A DNA stretch of 64,000 nucleotides, taken from contig NZ_KE159646.1 of NCBI RefSeq assembly GCF_000403355.2, positions 1,826,258 through 1,890,257 of the forward strand, read 5' to 3'. The position numbers and the translations under genes were made by a program. The DNA comes from Adlercreutzia caecimuris B7 (GTDB lineage Bacteria; Actinomycetota; Coriobacteriia; Coriobacteriales; Eggerthellaceae). Shown piece by piece: positions 28,938 through 36,879 of this stretch. A model generated the notes under the pieces. That model saw only the letters and a program-made list of their open reading frames with translations. It did not search any database and was not told the origin of the DNA. Numbering within the stretch: position 1 is the first letter of the stretch; every line of letters begins with the position of its first letter.

Positions 28938-30054
28938 GACTGCCTCCTTTATCGACGGAATATCAAGTTCGCTCATTATAGAGTGCGCGCAAGTCGACCG
29001 CAGCCGTTGATGCGCGGTTCTCACCTTACGGTAAACAAAGCGTCAAACATCATCGATAAGTAAATCTCTCACAGAAAACCTCAGCCTGTGCGCAAAAGCG
29101 GCATGGGGTGCAAAGCAATAAAGCATCCTGTCAAGCTCATCAAGGTAGACCAACTATGGGAAGCCCTTCGAGTGGTTGGAGTTCGCTCGTTTTTATACAT
29201 TTTGCGCTCACGGCCCAAAAACTGGTCGAAAATCGCTCGCTTTGCTACATCTCGTGGCCGAAGATCGCCCATTTTTCGACAAGCGTCTGTCGCACAGTCA
29301 GAGCACTCATCGCTGACCTGGCAAAACGTCATCGCTTCTCAGCCACTCGCAAAACTCACTTTGCTAAAAGCGCAAAAACAAGCGATCCCCAACCATTTTT
29401 ATAGGAAGATGACTCAACGTCCAAAAACAGAAGATCTCTGCCGCCCCCCCCTGTAAGCCACGTAGACCACCGAAATCCAATGGCAAATTGCTATGCAGGC
29501 TGCTTGATCGTGATGTGGCCGCACGAAAACCATGCAAGAAATCAGCCGCGGGTGCAGAATTCGATTCCTTCCCTGTTGTTTTGTGCAGGAGATGCGGGCT
29601 GTGGCGTGGAGAAGGCGGCACTGACCGTCGCTGCTGATTTGGCCTTCCCTCTGGCGAGCAACTGACGTTCGAGCTCTCGGATGAACTCCATTATGCATTC
29701 GAAATTCTCGCCTGACAGTTTCAGCAATTGCGCTTGTTTGGCAAACGTCTCGAAACGACCGTATCGCTTTTTACGTCACCACCGCCGGATCCTCTGACGC
29801 CATCCCATGCGCATCCTCCCTCAGAAAATCGGAAGCCCCTACTCTTAAACACGTACGAAAATGGTAAAACGCAGCAAGAGTTTTCTAAAACCACGAAGCA
29901 TGCAAAAACGCACTGTCGCGATCCAAATCCAAGCATTACACGCACGAGATAAGACCATACATCGTCGCCGTAAAACCTAGCCGAACAAAGTCTTCGTTAA
30001 TATCTTTCATGGAGACATCGACGAAAAGCTGGAAAACTCAAAGTAATCTCTCTA
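28938..30054. other. 1.1-kb gap with no supported gene
   Basis: GC content falls compared with the flanks, marking entry to the accessory region. Open frames exist on both strands but none has a ribosome site or recognisable protein. A leftward frame from a possible TTG at 29727 (LKLSGENFECIMEFIRELER) could be the end of a decayed gene. Confidence 0.4.
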
Positions 30055-30077
30055 AAATTAAATTATAAATTTAATTT
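30055..30077. promoter_or_regulatory. AT-rich inverted repeat before the radical SAM gene
   Basis: AAATTAAAT and ATTTAATTT flank TATAA, ending 29 bases before the start codon. Likely overlaps the promoter and could be an operator. Confidence 0.45.
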
Positions 30078-30106
30078 TTTCGTTATACTCAACCGAAGAA
30101 GGAAGT

Positions 30107-31354
30107 ATGAAGTTCGGCCCTCACATCAAATTGTTCGAATTCGCCGATATCCCCATGATTGGCAATGCAGATACGGGAGATGTGATTGGATTAAGCGACA
30201 AAGGACTCGACCTTTGCCAACGAATCGAAGATGGGCGAACGAGCATTGACGAGGCGGCTCGCGAACAACCAGACCTTTTTGAGCATTTAGAGATGGGCGG
30301 CTTTTTAGCTGAACCTTATCCACGCTCGCTTGAAGCCGCATACCTCCATATAACTCAGCGCTGCAATCTCCATTGCATAGGTTGTTATTCTGACGGCCCT
30401 GATCGCAATCGCTCAACCGATTTATCTTTATCCGCGATAGATGACATTATCGCGCAACTTGCGAGCATGGGCGTACGGACATTGAATATTTCTGGAGGGG
30501 AGCCTTTCCTCAGAAAAGATCTTCCTCTAATTGCTCAGCTAGCCAGCCGAGCACATGGCATTCCCGAAATAAATATTCTCACCAATGGCACTATCTATGC
30601 TCAGAATACAATTGACGGAATTGCTCCATTTGTAAAAAAGGTATCTGTTTCTTTTGATGGAATCTCTTCCTCGGACGAAGCCCTCGTTCGTGGCAGCCAA
30701 CGCTTTGATGAACTTGTTTCATTTGTTAAGCTTCTTCAAAAAGCAAACATTCCCGTGGTTCTTACAGCCACCGTTCACCGCAGGAACATAGAAATCTTAG
30801 ATGAATATGTTCGCCTAGCAAATCGGCTAGGGGCGACGATGAATTACAGCCTTCTTTCGCCACCATCTCATGGGATGTCCGAATTCGAAGACCTCGCATT
30901 TCGTGATGATGATTTGGTACAAGCCGCCACCGTTTTGTGGGATCTTGCCGACAAAGGCCTAGCAACTGTGGCTGAGGAAGAACCTGTTGGTGTTGGCCTT
31001 CGCTGTCGCGACACTTGCGGCGCCGGAGCGCGAGTCGTTAGCGTTGGAGCGGACGGAACGCTTTTTCCTTGCCATATGATGCACGACGATCGCTTCGCAT
31101 TAGGCAACTTACTAGAAAAATCATTGGAGGAAATACTTGCCTCGAGCAAATCTGAGAGTGTATCTCTAACAACCAGCCAACTGAATGGCTGCAAAGGATG
31201 CGACGCCCTTCCCTTCTGCGCCGGCGGCTGTCGTGCGCGCTCAGTAGCATCCGGCAACGGAATAGCTGGAAAAGACGCCTATTGCGCAATGCATAAGGCA
31301 TACTACAACGAGGCAGCCAGGCGGTTGAAAGCCGCCCTAGAAGATAGGAGTTAG
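30107..31354 (+). CDS. radical SAM/SPASM peptide-modifying enzyme
   Basis: 415 residues, with GAAGAAGGAAGT before ATG 30107. The N-terminal ~75 residues (IGLSDKGLDLCQRIEDGRTSIDEA) resemble a PqqD-like peptide-binding region. The radical SAM cluster motif CNLHCIGC has Cys at 86, 90 and 93, followed by LNISGGEPFLRKDL and VSFDGISS. The C-terminal SPASM region holds further Cys (CRDTCGAG, FPCHMM, GCKGCDALPFCAGGCRAR) for auxiliary Fe-S clusters. Enzymes of this layout crosslink ribosomal peptides or proteins. A 26-codon ORF starts 4 bases after its stop and is the best candidate substrate. Confidence 0.9.
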   Translation: MKFGPHIKLFEFADIPMIGNADTGDVIGLSDKGLDLCQRIEDGRTSIDEAAREQPDLFEHLEMGGFLAEPYPRSLEAAYLHITQRCNLHCIGCYSDGPDRNRSTDLSLSAIDDIIAQLASMGVRTLNISGGEPFLRKDLPLIAQLASRAHGIPEINILTNGTIYAQNTIDGIAPFVKKVSVSFDGISSSDEALVRGSQRFDELVSFVKLLQKANIPVVLTATVHRRNIEILDEYVRLANRLGATMNYSLLSPPSHGMSEFEDLAFRDDDLVQAATVLWDLADKGLATVAEEEPVGVGLRCRDTCGAGARVVSVGADGTLFPCHMMHDDRFALGNLLEKSLEEILASSKSESVSLTTSQLNGCKGCDALPFCAGGCRARSVASGNGIAGKDAYCAMHKAYYNEAARRLKAALEDRS

Positions 31355-31357
31355 ATT

Positions 31358-31438
31358 ATGTTGTTTCATCTGTCCGGAAATGTGTTAAAGCCTTGTGAAT
31401 GGATAGGCCTGTTTGGTTTCTGCTATTCTGCGGGGTAG
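31358..31438 (+). CDS. 26-residue peptide, candidate radical SAM substrate
   Basis: ATG 31358 uses AGGAG, which lies in the last codons of the radical SAM gene, so translation is coupled. The peptide has a short leader-like start (MLFHLSGNVLKP) and a core with two Cys nine residues apart, a Trp, and a Tyr (CEWIGLFGFCYSAG). Cys, Trp and Tyr are common targets of SPASM-enzyme crosslinking. No dedicated exporter or protease is adjacent on this strand. Function is inferred from position and composition only. Confidence 0.55.
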   Translation: MLFHLSGNVLKPCEWIGLFGFCYSAG

Positions 31439-31447
31439 AAGAAATGT

Positions 31448-31479
31448 CTCTGGCGGGGTTCTTGAAAACTCCGCCAGAG
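31448..31479 (+). terminator. hairpin after the radical SAM unit
   Basis: CTCTGGCGG pairs exactly with CCGCCAGAG, extended by GTT/AAC, beginning 10 bases after the peptide stop. No T-run follows. Confidence 0.6.
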
Positions 31480-31526: not shown

Positions 31527-32057
31527 TTGGAAGCCGCTCAGATTGAGAATTCTCGAAATGCTGTCAGGAATTTTGGCAAGATTCTAATTGTCGTATTTAC
31601 GGTGATGGCTTTTTTCTGCGCCTTCAACGTCTTGGCCTACTTGTTCGCTGCTTTTAAATCATCCGCATCGGAAGAAGTCCAGGATTGGTATCTTTTTGTC
31701 CCTGGTACTCTGGAGTGGGCTGCTTTTCTAATCGCGGCCCTTACCTGCATTTCAGCAGCTCATAAGATTACAATCGGCGCATCTTTATTTGTCCCCACGG
31801 TATCAAAGCGCCTAATGGGTTCTGCAATTTTTCTCTGGATCTATGTCCTTGTTAATGCTTTCTGGTTCCCTCTTCTTCAGCATTTCGGAACATTGATAGA
31901 TTGCAGTGAGGTGGCCATCAGCATTGCAGAGAACGGCTTTACCGCAGGCATATATTTTGATATCGGAACGGCATTTGCCGCCACAATCCTTATGCTGGTT
32001 GCTTCTATAATTCGCTATGGATCGGCGCTCCAAGAACAAGCTGATGAGTTATTTTAG
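31527..32057 (+). CDS. DUF2975-family membrane protein
   Basis: 176 residues. TTG 31527 is chosen since GGAGG lies 8 bases upstream and no ATG fits before the first span. Four membrane spans (ILIVVFTVMAFFCAFNVLAY, LEWAAFLIAALTCISA, LMGSAIFLWIYVLVNAFWF, TAFAATILMLVASII) and the usual length match DUF2975. These proteins almost always precede a YozG-like XRE regulator, as here. Exact role unknown; likely works with that regulator. Confidence 0.8.
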   Translation: MEAAQIENSRNAVRNFGKILIVVFTVMAFFCAFNVLAYLFAAFKSSASEEVQDWYLFVPGTLEWAAFLIAALTCISAAHKITIGASLFVPTVSKRLMGSAIFLWIYVLVNAFWFPLLQHFGTLIDCSEVAISIAENGFTAGIYFDIGTAFAATILMLVASIIRYGSALQEQADELF

Positions 32058-32392: not shown

Positions 32393-33151
32393 CTACTTCT
32401 CGGTCTTCGACTGGTCTTTACCGTCACACACGCTGGCAGTAAGCCAAATGAAATCATGATTAGGAACGGCACCCTCTCCCACCTGATGATACTCTTCCTT
32501 ACTGCCGCCAAAAGCGATATAGTCCCGGTTGTTCATGTCCGCGCTTCCATCGAACCATGTTTGAGGCACGGAAAACCCAACGTATATGATCGTTGAGTCT
32601 CCTTTTGGAAGGGAGAATGTCATAGAATCCGAACCGCCGATGTCTGTACGTTCGGATTGCTCAGGTGCAGCAAAGAACGTGACGGGGATTCTATCGGGGC
32701 CTAGGAACATAAAGTTGGCCCGGAATTTCTCGTCCTGTGCGTCGCTTTTCGCATCGTGATTATCAAGATACACTTCGCAAATAAGTATAGGGGCATCTTT
32801 TAAAGCATCCTTTCCTGCGACAAGATGCCCAACGTGATCTTTAGCTTCGTTGTAACTCCGATAGATCGTTGCAGATTTGATCTCGACGTTCATGACCCCT
32901 GACCAACCCAGATTATCGCGACTAGAGGAATCAAGCGTAAGCGCACCAGTCATGCTCACACCGGGAAGAGAAGGCGTTTCCCGGTCGGCTTCTGATTCCT
33001 CCACCGTTTTTGAATTCGGGGTTGCGCCTTGCCCATCATCAGACGAGCTTGACGGCGGTTGACAACTTGGCTGACAACCACTTAGGGCAAACAAACCTGA
33101 CATGCAGACTATCAGAAGGATCGACAACAACTTTGCTTTGCAGTTTTTCAT
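32393..33151 (-). CDS. lipoprotein of exporter locus B
   Basis: 252 residues. Signal with lipobox LSGC (SILLIVCMSGLFALSGCQ), then a Ser/Asp/Pro-rich linker and an extracytoplasmic beta-type domain (GVMNVEIKSATIYRSYNEAK...ILICEVYLDNHDAKSD...IIYVGFSVPQTWFD). This resembles the DUF5027-type lipoproteins found near small-peptide ABC exporters, from memory and unchecked. Last gene of the leftward operon, 33 bases after the membrane-anchored protein. Confidence 0.7.
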   Translation of the reverse strand: MKNCKAKLLSILLIVCMSGLFALSGCQPSCQPPSSSSDDGQGATPNSKTVEESEADRETPSLPGVSMTGALTLDSSSRDNLGWSGVMNVEIKSATIYRSYNEAKDHVGHLVAGKDALKDAPILICEVYLDNHDAKSDAQDEKFRANFMFLGPDRIPVTFFAAPEQSERTDIGGSDSMTFSLPKGDSTIIYVGFSVPQTWFDGSADMNNRDYIAFGGSKEEYHQVGEGAVPNHDFIWLTASVCDGKDQSKTEK

Positions 33152-33184
33152 AGTTACCCTTTCATTTAGATATTCGCACTCTCG

Positions 33185-33871
33185 TTAACTCCTATAGCCA
33201 GCTGAAAACAAAATGATTTTTCGTATCGGCGAATTTGTCACCACAAGTTTGTACTCACCCTCCTTCAGTGGCAGTCGAGTTCGTAAATTGCTAGCTTCAA
33301 AGTACCGCTCCTCAGCTTGAATGCTAAACGGTACGACTAAGTCAAACTCAGTACCTGGCTCTATGCGAAACATAGATTGATCAGTCATTTTCGGATCTGA
33401 AATTTCCCACAAATCCCAATCGGGCTGCATCGACAAGCTAGGATTTTTCGAACTTATAGCTCGCCAGTCAATTGCAGCAAAGTATCCATCGCTATTCTCG
33501 GGAGCGCATTTCACTGCAAGTTTAACGACAAGAACCGATAAAGTGTCGGCTTCCTCCACCTTGATGTCGTCATATTTGCCAAGAATATCTTTGCTTAGAT
33601 CGACCGATGCTTCACCGTAGGCTTCCAAAAACTGCTTGGGTGACATGATCTGAGAAGACTCCAATTTCAATGAGAGTCCGTTGGTTTTTTCATCTGCCAG
33701 ACCAGCAAACGATCCATCGAGGTCAACCCAGTCTGCATTTTCGTAGTTTTCCTCAACAATCTGAGGCGCATGCGCATTGACGTAATCAATGCGCAAAAAA
33801 CACGCTATCGCAAGAAGACCTACGACAATTGGCACAGAAATACGGAGCGCCCTCCTCAAAGCGTCACTCAT
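33185..33871 (-). CDS. membrane-anchored extracytoplasmic protein of exporter locus B
   Basis: 228 residues. One N-terminal span (ISVPIVVGLLAIACFLRIDYV, about 11-31), then an external domain (LSVLVVKLAVKCAPENSDGY..., FDLVVPFSIQAEERYFEAS). It overlaps the ATPase gene by 8 bases, so it is coupled to the exporter. Possibly of the DUF5028 type that pairs with DUF5027; tentative. Probable accessory or immunity component. Confidence 0.65.
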   Translation of the reverse strand: MSDALRRALRISVPIVVGLLAIACFLRIDYVNAHAPQIVEENYENADWVDLDGSFAGLADEKTNGLSLKLESSQIMSPKQFLEAYGEASVDLSKDILGKYDDIKVEEADTLSVLVVKLAVKCAPENSDGYFAAIDWRAISSKNPSLSMQPDWDLWEISDPKMTDQSMFRIEPGTEFDLVVPFSIQAEERYFEASNLRTRLPLKEGEYKLVVTNSPIRKIILFSAGYRS

Positions 33872-34553
33872 CTCGCCCTCCCATCGATTGGCTGCAACAT
33901 ATATTGCTGTCGCGCATCGGTGGCTTCTCTTCTATCAGCCTGCCCTCTTCCACAAGAGCCATTCTGTCGGATACCATCCCCAAAACCTTATCATCATGCG
34001 AGGTGATCACTATGCTTGCCCCACATCCCCTGGCTTTGCATATCAGCGACTTGAACATTTCAACGCCATCTTGATCGAGTGCATTTGTAGGCTCGTCTAA
34101 AAGCACCACATCGGGTCTCTCCATAAATGCAACAGCCAAGCCCAAACGCTGCTTCATTCCAAGCGAGTACTTATGAAAAGGGCGGCGATCCTGCGGATCA
34201 AGGCCCACTTGCCTCAGAATCGTCTTGATGTCTTCGACCGTAACGGTGTTTCTAATTGATGCCAAAAGTCGACAGTTGTCCAGCCCTGTATAGTGAGCGA
34301 GGAATGACGGCGTTTCGATTAGGAGCCCAAGATTGACAGGGTACGGCACGCCCGGACCGAGCTTGATTCCATTGATAAAGATTGCTCCTGCATCGGAATA
34401 GACTAAACCAGCTATTGCTCGAAGAAGCATAGTTTTCCCAGAACCATTAGGCCCTTTTACGCCAACAATCTCTCCAGGCCTGACCGTTAGATTGATTTCT
34501 CGAAGGACTTTGTGGCCTCTGATGGTTTTAGAAAAACTACTTACTTCAATCAT
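33864..34553 (-). CDS. ABC transporter ATP-binding protein (exporter locus B)
   Basis: 229 residues. Walker A GPNGSGKT at about 34-41, signature YSLGMKQRLG at about 129-138, Walker B DVVLLDEP at about 148-155, switch His in ITSHDD at about 186. It is of the same subclass as the ATPase at 1652 (both have LIETPsF/GVIIETPGF before the Q-loop region and the same signature). It overlaps the upstream permease gene by 8 bases. Confidence 0.92.
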   Translation of the reverse strand: MIEVSSFSKTIRGHKVLREINLTVRPGEIVGVKGPNGSGKTMLLRAIAGLVYSDAGAIFINGIKLGPGVPYPVNLGLLIETPSFLAHYTGLDNCRLLASIRNTVTVEDIKTILRQVGLDPQDRRPFHKYSLGMKQRLGLAVAFMERPDVVLLDEPTNALDQDGVEMFKSLICKARGCGASIVITSHDDKVLGMVSDRMALVEEGRLIEEKPPMRDSNICCSQSMGGRDE

Positions 34554-35394
34554 AAGTTTCCACCATCCCTACAATATTGCTGCCACGAAAAATTAGCGCC
34601 CCAACCAAAGTTGAAAAAAACCCGACCAATACCGCATATGCTAAGGATTGAATCGATGAAATCCCAGTACTTAAGAAACAATCCGATCGTACAGCCATCA
34701 AATACTCCCCCGGAATAAAACCGGACACAATTAGCAGGGCAGGGAGCAACGACACTAACACAGTCAAAAAAGCGAACAATTCGTTCTTTAAAAGCGAAAT
34801 TACCACCAGAGGTAGAACGAAAAGGGCCCCTATGAGCGGAATCATTAGCAAGAAGGAGGTCAAATCGTATGGACTATCTAACAGTTCGTCATTTCGTGAT
34901 AAGTTGATGGCTTCGATGGAACTGGAAGCCTCCAAAGAAAAGTGTCCCGAATTGATACTAGTTAAGAACATTGCCGTAATTGCTACCGCTATCCAAAACA
35001 AAAATGTCGCAATCAACGCCCAGATACATTTCGCCAAGAACCACGAGGAGCGCTTTTTCGATTTCAGAAGAGAACTCACGCCAAAATACCCTTTGCCATA
35101 TTTACCCACATAGGCTATTGGCGCAAGAGCACACGCCGTCCATAACAGCATCCAACCGATTGGAAAAAGAATTGAATCTCGTTCGATCTGGTCAGGAGGC
35201 AGAAGACCAGCCAATATAAGGAGAGCGTTATCGCCAAGAGTGAATTCGCTCCAATCAATCTGGTAGGCAGAGGCTTTGACCCATCCTCCCAATATAACAG
35301 TAAAGGCGACCGTAGCTCCTAAGGCAACAGAAAGGAGCAGGTATCGCTTTCCAGCTCGTAAATCAAACCGAAGACCGTTGTAGACGCCAATCAT
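34546..35394 (-). CDS. ABC-2 type permease (exporter locus B, second subunit)
   Basis: 282 residues with about six spans. Overlaps the preceding permease by 4 bases (ATGA) and the following ATPase by 8, a fully coupled set. Partner of 35391-36269; corresponds by position to 2405-3286 in locus A. Substrate unknown. Confidence 0.8.
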   Translation of the reverse strand: MIGVYNGLRFDLRAGKRYLLLSVALGATVAFTVILGGWVKASAYQIDWSEFTLGDNALLILAGLLPPDQIERDSILFPIGWMLLWTACALAPIAYVGKYGKGYFGVSSLLKSKKRSSWFLAKCIWALIATFLFWIAVAITAMFLTSINSGHFSLEASSSIEAINLSRNDELLDSPYDLTSFLLMIPLIGALFVLPLVVISLLKNELFAFLTVLVSLLPALLIVSGFIPGEYLMAVRSDCFLSTGISSIQSLAYAVLVGFFSTLVGALIFRGSNIVGMVETYD

Positions 35395-36269
35395 CGCGCA
35401 CCACTCCGATTCCGCGAAAAAGCAAGCACTGCGGACAAAAGAATAAGAAGAGCGACTATGCTAACCGAAATTATAGGCTCATGCGCATATTCAAAGCTCC
35501 ATCCTTGGAGTATCTGAAAAATGCTAAACTCGAAAATAGGAACCGAAGTTAGAGCCGCAAAGAAGAAGTGGTTGCAAAATTCAAGTATCAGCAGAAAGAA
35601 ATAGGGCAAAATAAGCGCAAAGGAAACTCTCTTGACGAACCAGCCGATACTGAGCACCAAGGCACCCCATGCTCCGCACAGACACGAATCAAACAAGGTT
35701 CTCAAAAAGACAAAAAATGCAGGGTTGGAATAGAATACATCGGCAAAAACCTCGCTATACGTCATTCCCGTATACAAGCTATCATAAGCATTAGGCATAA
35801 ATGCCGGGAAATAGCATGCGACAAAAATCATATTTGACAACAAAGCAATGGCGGCCACTGCAGCAGATGCACAAAAAGACGCAATCAGCTTACTAAAGTA
35901 GTACTGCCAGCGAGGACACCTGGTAATCTCCTGACAGTAATAGCCGGACCGCATTTCCGTAACACTAGACCAGCTATACGCAAAAGGCGCAATGAACACC
36001 ATTCCGTAGAAGAAGAGGTAATAGAATCCCGCTCTGCCCCACGCCCCTACCCCGAGCCATGCAGCATAGCAACTCCAACTAGAATAATAGGGATACGCAT
36101 CTGTATTGGCTGTGTTAAAGCCGATAACTTCGAACTGATTTATCGATTCTACAGCCGCAAGGCCGGCAAGCACGAGTGCGATTGCCACAGCAATCGCAAA
36201 CCATCTCCCGCAAAAAGCTTTTCGAATCTCCAGTGACAATACTCGACGCATACGAATTAACAGCTCCAA
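35391..36269 (-). CDS. ABC-2 type permease (exporter locus B, first subunit)
   Basis: 292 residues with about six spans. The cytoplasmic coupling region PFAYSWSSVTEMRSGYYCQE followed by RCPRWQYYFSKLIAS aligns with the locus A permease at 3279-4067. ATG 36269 lies 110 bases after the small secreted protein gene, so it is probably on the same transcript with separate translation. Confidence 0.8.
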   Translation of the reverse strand: MELLIRMRRVLSLEIRKAFCGRWFAIAVAIALVLAGLAAVESINQFEVIGFNTANTDAYPYYSSWSCYAAWLGVGAWGRAGFYYLFFYGMVFIAPFAYSWSSVTEMRSGYYCQEITRCPRWQYYFSKLIASFCASAAVAAIALLSNMIFVACYFPAFMPNAYDSLYTGMTYSEVFADVFYSNPAFFVFLRTLFDSCLCGAWGALVLSIGWFVKRVSFALILPYFFLLILEFCNHFFFAALTSVPIFEFSIFQILQGWSFEYAHEPIISVSIVALLILLSAVLAFSRNRSGAR

Positions 36270-36378
36270 ATCCCCAAAACCATAGCAGCAGCCAGATACG
36301 GTACTAGTGCAGAATGCCTCACGATAGAGCAGAGCGTCACGTCGGCACCGGCGGACGCACCGCCCTATCAGCCAAGCC

Positions 36379-36879
36379 TTAATCTATGTTCAGGACCGGC
36401 AAGTCAGCTGCAGCCTCGCTGCAATCCGGACTCCACACACCATTGGTGCTTCCAGTTCCAAACGGCGCCCATGCCGTCAGACGAGCCCATTTGTAGTCCT
36501 CATTGCCATGTCGGGAATCTCGCACAGTGTTGCGAATTCGATATTGCCCATCTCGCTCATCGTAGGCTTTTCCGACCATGCAATTTTTGGAACCCCTGCC
36601 TTCGCGATCGAGAGCCCCATCAATGTACAAGCGACAATGATGCCCGTTATGGTACATGATGTGGATATAAGCACTTCCCGCCGCCGCCTTGTGGCGCCAC
36701 TCGGTTCCGTCCGTAGAGCCTTTGCTCTCCAAATAGAAACCATAGCCAGTATTTGCGTCACTAGCGTATGCGTGCTGAGTTGTCGTCGCAGTACCAAACA
36801 CTGACAGCAAACCAACAAAGGCCACGATCAGTGCCTTCCGCCTAAAATCGAACGTTGTAATGCTAGATGTAGACTTCAT
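36379..36879 (-). CDS. small secreted protein heading exporter locus B
   Basis: 166 residues. ATG 36879 follows AGGAGGTATGTA. Signal peptide to about residue 39 (LIVAFVGLLSVFGTATTTQHAYA), then a ~127-residue mature part with four Cys and a repeated aromatic/basic beta pattern (NTGYGFYLESKGS, YIHIMYHNGHHCRLYIDGAL, KWARLTAWAPFG) ending VWSPDCSEAAADLPVLNID. The style recalls DUF2712-type proteins that accompany ABC exporters in Gram-positives, but I cannot confirm it. Likely the exported or protected substrate of the operon. Confidence 0.65.
   Translation of the reverse strand: MKSTSSITTFDFRRKALIVAFVGLLSVFGTATTTQHAYASDANTGYGFYLESKGSTDGTEWRHKAAAGSAYIHIMYHNGHHCRLYIDGALDREGRGSKNCMVGKAYDERDGQYRIRNTVRDSRHGNEDYKWARLTAWAPFGTGSTNGVWSPDCSEAAADLPVLNID

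Follow-up and report, generated by a model that had tools for sequence, protein, structure and literature searches.

A four-gene RiPP cassette of gut Coriobacteriia with a hypervariable peptide and DUF2975-like membrane protein, proposed to serve self-recognition signalling

In the agr and ComQXP systems conserved flanks enclose a variable part, in which the peptide changes together with the sensing region of a membrane protein. SdpC, SdpI and SdpR of Bacillus subtilis are a peptide, a membrane partner and a small HTH regulator, respectively. In yydFGHIJ, which specifies an epipeptide, a peptide and a radical SAM enzyme are found with ABC genes and a membrane protease; epipeptides are epimerised, not Cys-based. 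Substrates of PapB have a Cys-x3-acceptor spacing, which the family described here would share. Streptosactin has two unnested rings, each running from a Cys to residue i+3 (Cys25-Ser28 and Cys31-Gly34) (PMC8172795, PMC13361665). Putative sactipeptide clusters of Anaerococcus prevotii and Thermoanaerobacter mathranii, whose membership of the present family is unresolved, appear in a 2014 survey of anaerobes, where the single mention of Eggerthella lenta concerns NHLP/Nif11-like precursors (PMC4289311). The literature that we searched, which mostly excluded subscription papers, contained no earlier description of the cassette reported below, nothing linking DUF2975 to radical SAM enzymes, and nothing on DUF2975 function.

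The window analysed is a stretch of 64,000 nucleotides from Adlercreutzia caecimuris B7. An earlier note on this DNA proposed a two-gene RiPP unit made up of a radical SAM/SPASM enzyme and a coupled 26-codon precursor. The link between the enzyme and a real short precursor is borne out by the comparisons below, but the unit is larger: enzyme, peptide, a DUF2975-like membrane protein and an HTH_26 regulator (Table 1) are all present in 62 of 71 Coriobacteriia loci, and most of the exceptions are cut by contig ends. With modest confidence, we read these four genes as a RiPP cassette for self-recognition signalling, in which a thioether peptide would act on its cognate DUF2975 protein and this in turn on the HTH regulator.

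Table 1. Features of the cassette and its flanks (window coordinates)
Feature	Position	Strand	Basis
25-bp perfect palindrome AAAATTAAATTATAAATTTAATTTT, candidate operator/promoter element	30054..30078	.	Palindrome scan; function inferred only
Radical SAM/SPASM peptide maturase, 415 aa	30107..31354	+	Pfam Radical_SAM and SPASM above cut-off
N-terminal RiPP recognition element (RRE), PqqD-like winged helix, residues 1-68	30107..30310	+	AlphaFold, Foldseek
CxxxCxxC (C86, C90, C93), binds SAM-cleaving 4Fe-4S cluster	30362..30385	+	Invariant in 18 homologues
7-Cys SPASM motif, C304 to C393	31016..31285	+	7/7 Cys invariant in 18 homologues
AGGAG ribosome binding site of peptide, within the enzyme's last codons	31346..31350	+	Sequence
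Precursor peptide MLFHLSGNVLKPCEWIGLFGFCYSAG, 26 codons	31358..31438	+	71-peptide family; fixed position by enzyme and DUF2975 gene
First crosslink motif C13-E-W-I-G17 (putative)	31394..31408	+	C-x-x-[IVL]-G of two-Cys class
Second crosslink motif C22-Y-S-A-G26 (putative)	31421..31435	+	C-x-x-x-G of two-Cys class
Strong RNA hairpin directly 3' of peptide, without T-run	31448..31479	+	-23.7 kcal/mol
Membrane protein of 176 aa, DUF2975-like, with four predicted TM helices; receptor in the proposed reading, immunity protein in the rival one	31527..32057	+	In-house HMM, 1e-38
HTH_26 (Cro/C1-type) DNA-binding regulator, 71 aa	32072..32287	+	Pfam PF13443, 71.5 bits (cut-off 22)

Homologous enzymes (E <1e-60) were found in 37/140 Eggerthellaceae genomes and 61/350 Coriobacteriia genomes, sampled at one genome per species; a few occur in Bacillota. 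In the 62 complete Coriobacteriia loci the peptide gene is followed by that of a membrane protein of ~160-190 aa and then by HTH_26. The enzyme comes first in 55 loci, and the order is peptide-DUF2975-HTH-enzyme in 7. Some peptides have no adjacent enzyme at all: L245 (G094:C67) is a second peptide-DUF2975-HTH set of its genome, and L254 (G089:C130) is a peptide-DUF2975 set lying apart from the enzyme of that genome (L167). The peptide's tie to the membrane protein is thus no weaker than its tie to the enzyme, and we infer that the enzyme can act in trans. DUF2975-HTH pairs without any peptide also exist, so that the two look like a regulatory module of more general use. The window's membrane protein has no Pfam match at E 0.1 and is tied to DUF2975 by the cassette alignment and by its C-terminal RYGSALQEQADELF; the in-house HMM that recovers it had the protein itself in its training set. 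Cassette proteins that reach the 27-bit gathering cut-off of PF11188 are those of G030 (30.9), G002:C16 (28.1), G061 (27.6), G093 (27.2) and G084 (27.0). The window's own genome has a second complete cassette (L148, G000:C1:2813195-2814409), whose precursor, beginning MLFHTNPNVKSICHKIGVAGICISQGF, has a 31-residue C-terminal extension, and G002 has three enzymes.

Comparison of related cassettes reveals a hypervariable middle. L168 and L171 are 97% identical in both enzyme and HTH protein, 67% in the peptide and 58% in the DUF2975 protein. The corresponding values for L173/L175 are 96, 96, 63 and 44% and for L191/L193 86, 99, 68 and 48%; in L034 and L153 the enzymes are 94%, the peptides 56% and the DUF2975 proteins 39% identical. 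The peptides of L174 and L176 are similar (89%) with membrane proteins only 59% identical, and pairs such as L156/L177 show no such divergence. In the divergent pairs dS is 0.18-0.36 in the enzymes and >1.4 or saturated in the DUF2975 genes, and BLASTN homology is lost around the peptide and regained towards the end of the DUF2975 gene. The jump in dS and the break in homology together look like allelic replacement, not fast substitution alone. The criterion for pherotypes, a hypervariable peptide and membrane partner between conserved genes, is therefore met in these cassettes, and such a middle between conserved neighbours predicts allele-specific recognition.

Does the peptide co-vary with the membrane protein specifically? 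With enzyme and HTH distances removed, peptide and DUF2975 distances remain correlated (partial r 0.72, n=16, P 0.0005; 0.51, n=29, P 0.0005), and peptide distances show no correlation with HTH distances; in the one-Cys peptide class defined below only a weak partial correlation is seen (0.16, P 0.02). This co-divergence supports binding but does not prove it, because linkage of neighbouring genes could contribute. Identity across 16 related DUF2975 proteins is low in the two predicted outer loops (0.18 in loop 1, 0.24-0.30 in loop 2) and higher on the inside, at ~0.6 for the positively charged cytoplasmic loop and 0.83-0.89 for the C-terminal tail (topology was assigned from hydropathy and charge only). 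We consider it quite likely that the peptide is recognised by its cognate DUF2975 protein, binding itself being an inference. To our knowledge there is no DUF2975 protein with a known ligand.

In the mechanism that we propose, the modified peptide would be recognised outside the membrane by the variable face of the DUF2975-like protein encoded with it. The conserved side of that protein, which faces inwards and comprises the cytoplasmic loop and the C-terminal tail, would relay the signal to the HTH_26 protein encoded next door, a probable regulator of the promoter of its own cassette. Between lineages, peptide and receptor outer face would be swapped together, and signal/receptor types would therefore differ among strains. 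The same pairing of a hypervariable peptide with a hypervariable membrane partner occurs in bacteriocin/immunity loci, for which SdpI and SdpR, both responding to SdpC, provide a model. A narrow-spectrum modified bacteriocin is thus the main rival and remains possible, if doubtful; here the peptide would attack the membranes of close relatives, the DUF2975-like protein would give allele-specific immunity and the HTH protein would induce that immunity. The ABC transporters and CAAX-type proteases of Bacillota relatives make a bacteriocin-like layout, and some streptococcal radical-SAM RiPPs inhibit their own producers (PMC13361665). Coriobacteriia cassettes, however, have no dedicated exporter, and in them regulators that are 96-99% identical accompany membrane proteins of only 44-59% identity. 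Signalling is favoured over plain immunity because the membrane protein varies mainly on its predicted outer face and is conserved on the inner one, and because DUF2975-HTH pairs occur without a peptide. Among the points against signalling, besides the pattern shared with bacteriocin/immunity pairs, is that the cassette lacks an exporter and a processing protease. No sensor histidine kinase or response regulator recurs in the Coriobacteriia cassette, only DUF2975 and HTH_26.

The enzyme scores above the Pfam cut-offs for both Radical_SAM (70.4 bits) and SPASM (36.3 bits). Its CxxxCxxC motif and Cys-rich SPASM end, remarked on earlier, hold up in homologues: the SPASM cysteines C304-x12-G317-x4-C322, C362-x2-C365-x5-C371-x3-C375 and C393 form the canonical 7-Cys motif. 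The N-terminal region has no Pfam match. The AlphaFold model of residues 1-71 has the order beta-beta-beta-alpha-alpha-alpha (pLDDT ~78), and Foldseek retrieves the lasso-peptide RRE TbiB1 with leader at the top (prob 1.00), followed by CteB and SuiB, in agreement with the PqqD-like N-terminus suggested in the earlier note; on this predicted structure the enzyme is a radical SAM/SPASM protein with an RRE fold. Its nearest solved structures are those of RiPP maturases, namely CteB (best PDB match), SkfB and PqqE by profile and SkfB, CteB, PqqE and SuiB by fold, and its profile similarity to YydG is only distant (23.7 bits). Residues 286-415 of the whole-enzyme model are poor (pLDDT <50) and so we make no statement on the active site. 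PHROGs and PADLOC returned generic radical SAM, viperin and HTH similarity only. The NCBIfam model of the StsB sactipeptide maturase (NF045574) matches at 121.3 bits, short of its curated cut-off of 625. This match had been read as a streptosactin enzyme, a reading that was dropped because StsC is part of an Actinomycetota sactipeptide (PMC12710340), and the name StsB is therefore no evidence for streptosactin.

The peptide ORF lies just where the earlier note had placed it, with its ribosome site inside the enzyme gene, except that it begins 3 and not 4 bases past the enzyme's TAG stop. Of the 79 homologous loci, 60 have an ORF that starts M-[LQ]-F and contains C-x3/4-G between -60 and +150 bp of the enzyme stop, compared with 5/7,141 control windows of the same DNA; an M-[L/Q]-F ORF with a Cys lies near the enzyme in 70 of the 79 loci examined. 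Such ORFs sit beside enzyme homologues both across Coriobacteriia and in Bacillota; their Cys positions are conserved and their flanks variable, which is the outcome that the proposal of a precursor had called for. The precursor is upstream of the DUF2975 gene in L150, L157, L166, L178, L033, L204 and L206. Family members that were tested have no Pfam or NCBIfam match, in line with the first impression that the family was unfamiliar. We have hardly any doubt that the 26-codon ORF is a real precursor.

All but one of the 71 peptides are distinct in sequence (70/71). They are mostly 21-29 residues long with one to three Cys, and start Met-Leu-Phe in 69/71 and MQF in two. Trp and Tyr, which the earlier note had stressed, are not conserved; what is kept is MLF, Cys, Ile/Val/Leu at Cys+3 and Gly, giving C-x-x-[I/V/L]-G and often a second C-x-x-x-G. 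In the two-Cys class (n=47) C-x-x-[I/V/L]-G is followed after 3-5 residues by C-x-x-x-G and mostly by one final residue. The one-Cys-motif class (n=23) has C-x-x-[I/V/F]-x, usually with G-[I/V/F/L]-x-[I/V]-G-x, and one further peptide is an outlier. Counts of Gly are not independent evidence since the class definitions fix the Gly positions; the I/V/L at +3 (47/47 two-Cys members), the MLF start and the spacing are not so fixed. In 16 related Eggerthellaceae loci peptide positions 1-5 are identical, and the remainder is 35-52% identical outside Cys/Gly. As judged from such alignments, the precursor is a five-residue leader plus a variable core. Unlike other one-Cys-class members, the L195 and L198 precursors (MLFESMNCACC...) have three clustered Cys (C8, C10, C11).

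This variability bears on two other explanations. If the peptide were the precursor of a redox cofactor or small molecule of the mycofactocin or PQQ type, with the enzyme as cofactor maturase, a conserved core would be expected as in cofactor precursors, whereas 70/71 peptides differ; core variability led us to reject this explanation, which is very improbable. The mycofactocin maturase MftC is among the best NCBIfam matches of the enzyme, but its score of 121.2 bits is far under the curated cut-off of 265, and no cofactor-pathway genes were seen beside the enzyme. The ORF's mere 26 codons and lack of a family-model match might suggest a frame that is open by chance, or one that serves translational coupling and yields no peptide. 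This reading is scarcely credible and was rejected given the ORF's excess over control windows, its conserved start, motif, position and ribosome site, its separation from the enzyme gene in 7 loci, and the purifying selection seen in L168/L169 (dN 0.03, dS 1.26), where the DNA has diverged but the peptide has been kept.

Returning to the four-gene signalling cassette, how might its peptide be matured? That the peptide is modified by the adjacent enzyme is very probable, and a thioether is the likely product, the chemistry being inferred. The RRE would hold the MLF start of the 26-aa precursor as a minimal leader, and the radical SAM/SPASM core would then link C13 and C22, each through a single thioether, to the residue at +3 or +4. 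In the window's peptide the acceptors would be Ile16/Gly17 and Ala25/Gly26, yielding two small unnested rings. The Gly at +4 of the two-Cys class would fit a sactipeptide-type alpha link, which a Gly acceptor would need as it has no side chain; the Ile/Val at +3 is an equal candidate. Trp/Tyr crosslinks were rejected as a general chemistry, as only 5/47 two-Cys peptides have a Trp and 25/47 a Tyr after position 8. Formyl-Met-Leu-Phe is a classic human neutrophil chemoattractant, and a released MLF leader (31358-31366) could matter in the gut. MLF is also found in a Thermoanaerobacter relative (L227), which suggests enzyme recognition, not host interaction.

On the regulatory side, the palindrome upstream of the enzyme (Table 1) is in an AT-rich site just upstream of a TATACT -10-like hexamer (30084-30089). 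Neither the palindrome nor, with up to 3 mismatches allowed, its inner 23-mer recurs in the genome, and no regulon can therefore be inferred. A GTAA-N8-TTAC-type inverted repeat precedes 13/81 cassettes, compared with 5/1,771 control windows, and is absent from the window's upstream region. The HTH protein may act on this type of repeat or, in the window, on the palindrome. In L155, L160, L168-L171 and L181 the conserved element ATTTATCATAAAAC[GA]TTAAA lies ~190-240 bp upstream of the enzyme and adjoins the apparent start of a divergent LysR-type gene, and the palindrome TGTAAATCTGTGATTTACA is immediately upstream of the L254 peptide. The hairpin after the peptide is a probable stabiliser or attenuator: at 21 loci such hairpins average -21.7 kcal/mol as against -11.3 for shuffled spacers, with stem sequences that differ among loci. 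We infer that it fits a need for more precursor transcripts than downstream-gene transcripts.

Export is likewise inferred: the modified peptide would leave the cell by a housekeeping route not encoded in the cassette. The earlier note had found no adjacent exporter and left open export by its 'locus B', here taken to be the divergent ABC genes at 33864-36269. The absence of an exporter is general, since no Coriobacteriia cassette except L158 has ABC genes; no link to 'locus B' was found, and it was discarded as the exporter. The region 32393-36879 (- strand) encodes an ABC ATPase (33864-34553, Pfam ABC_tran) and two proteins that resemble permeases. It also encodes a 166-aa secreted protein (36379-36879, - strand) that by eye is like the lactococcin 972-type bacteriocins but has no Pfam match. 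In L158 (G025:C12, Eggerthellaceae) the enzyme is followed by two tandem precursors, an ABC ATPase, a permease and a CAAX-type protease, without DUF2975/HTH. ABC genes and a CAAX-type protease (Rce1-like) also replace DUF2975/HTH in Bacillota relatives (Anaerococcus, Thermoanaerobacter-type and others); this form is a more ordinary RiPP export layout. In L229 and L230 (Bacillota) one enzyme is preceded by a row of three precursors, all different (further off in L230); every one of them has two CxxxG-like motifs and a tail at its C-terminus that ends in -RL, -RI, -RV or -KL. A plasmid search gave only a mycofactocin enzyme and a partial Streptococcus relative. L264, on Streptococcus salivarius plasmid NZ_CP018188.1, has an enzyme without the N-terminal part that adjoins an IS1595-type transposase and lnu(C). 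The one-Cys peptide of L264 is MLKFSTKKTKKAGCVSVGALVSVSIGHYIKEVKSTV, and the locus also has ABC genes, a CPBP protease and a LytTR/GHKL pair.

Gut bacteria of the Coriobacteriia, including Adlercreutzia and its Eggerthellaceae relatives, are poorly known as to communication and competition. The case is evenly balanced that they possess a new signalling architecture, widespread among them and made up of a near-leaderless radical-SAM thioether peptide, a hypervariable DUF2975 sensor of the cell surface and a directly controlled single-domain HTH protein. If they do, this would be the first ligand and function for DUF2975/HTH_26 pairs, which are present in many bacteria; the cassette in any case offers a route to the function of an uncharacterised membrane family, and adds a RiPP family of ~70 distinct precursors.

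How, then, does the cassette compare with known systems? The nearest chemical parallel is streptosactin (GggA/GggB, Streptococcus), with a SPASM enzyme, a short core and two consecutive small Cys rings, whose Cys to i+3 span resembles the C-x-x-[I/V] of the present family. The leader of streptosactin is longer, and its cluster includes a protease and regulators but no DUF2975/HTH_26, whereas the present family has Gly at i+4, Ile/Val/Leu at +3 and a leader of ~5 residues. Ranthipeptide enzymes of the CteB and PapB type share the RRE-SPASM arrangement, CteB being the best profile match; SCIFF-type precursors, however, have six Cys in ~45 residues, a criterion that one to three Cys do not meet. 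The yydFGHIJ layout is resembled by the Bacillota relatives, not by the Coriobacteriia form, which has neither transporter nor protease. With SdpC/SdpI/SdpR the cassette shares a peptide, a membrane partner and a small HTH protein, but there is no SdpI match in Pfam, the regulator is HTH_26, the peptide is very probably radical-SAM modified and no sequence relation was seen. Relative to agr/ComQXP, a four-helix DUF2975 protein and a one-domain HTH protein stand in place of a kinase and response regulator, and maturation would be by a radical SAM enzyme; the likeness lies in a peptide and a proposed membrane sensor that vary together.
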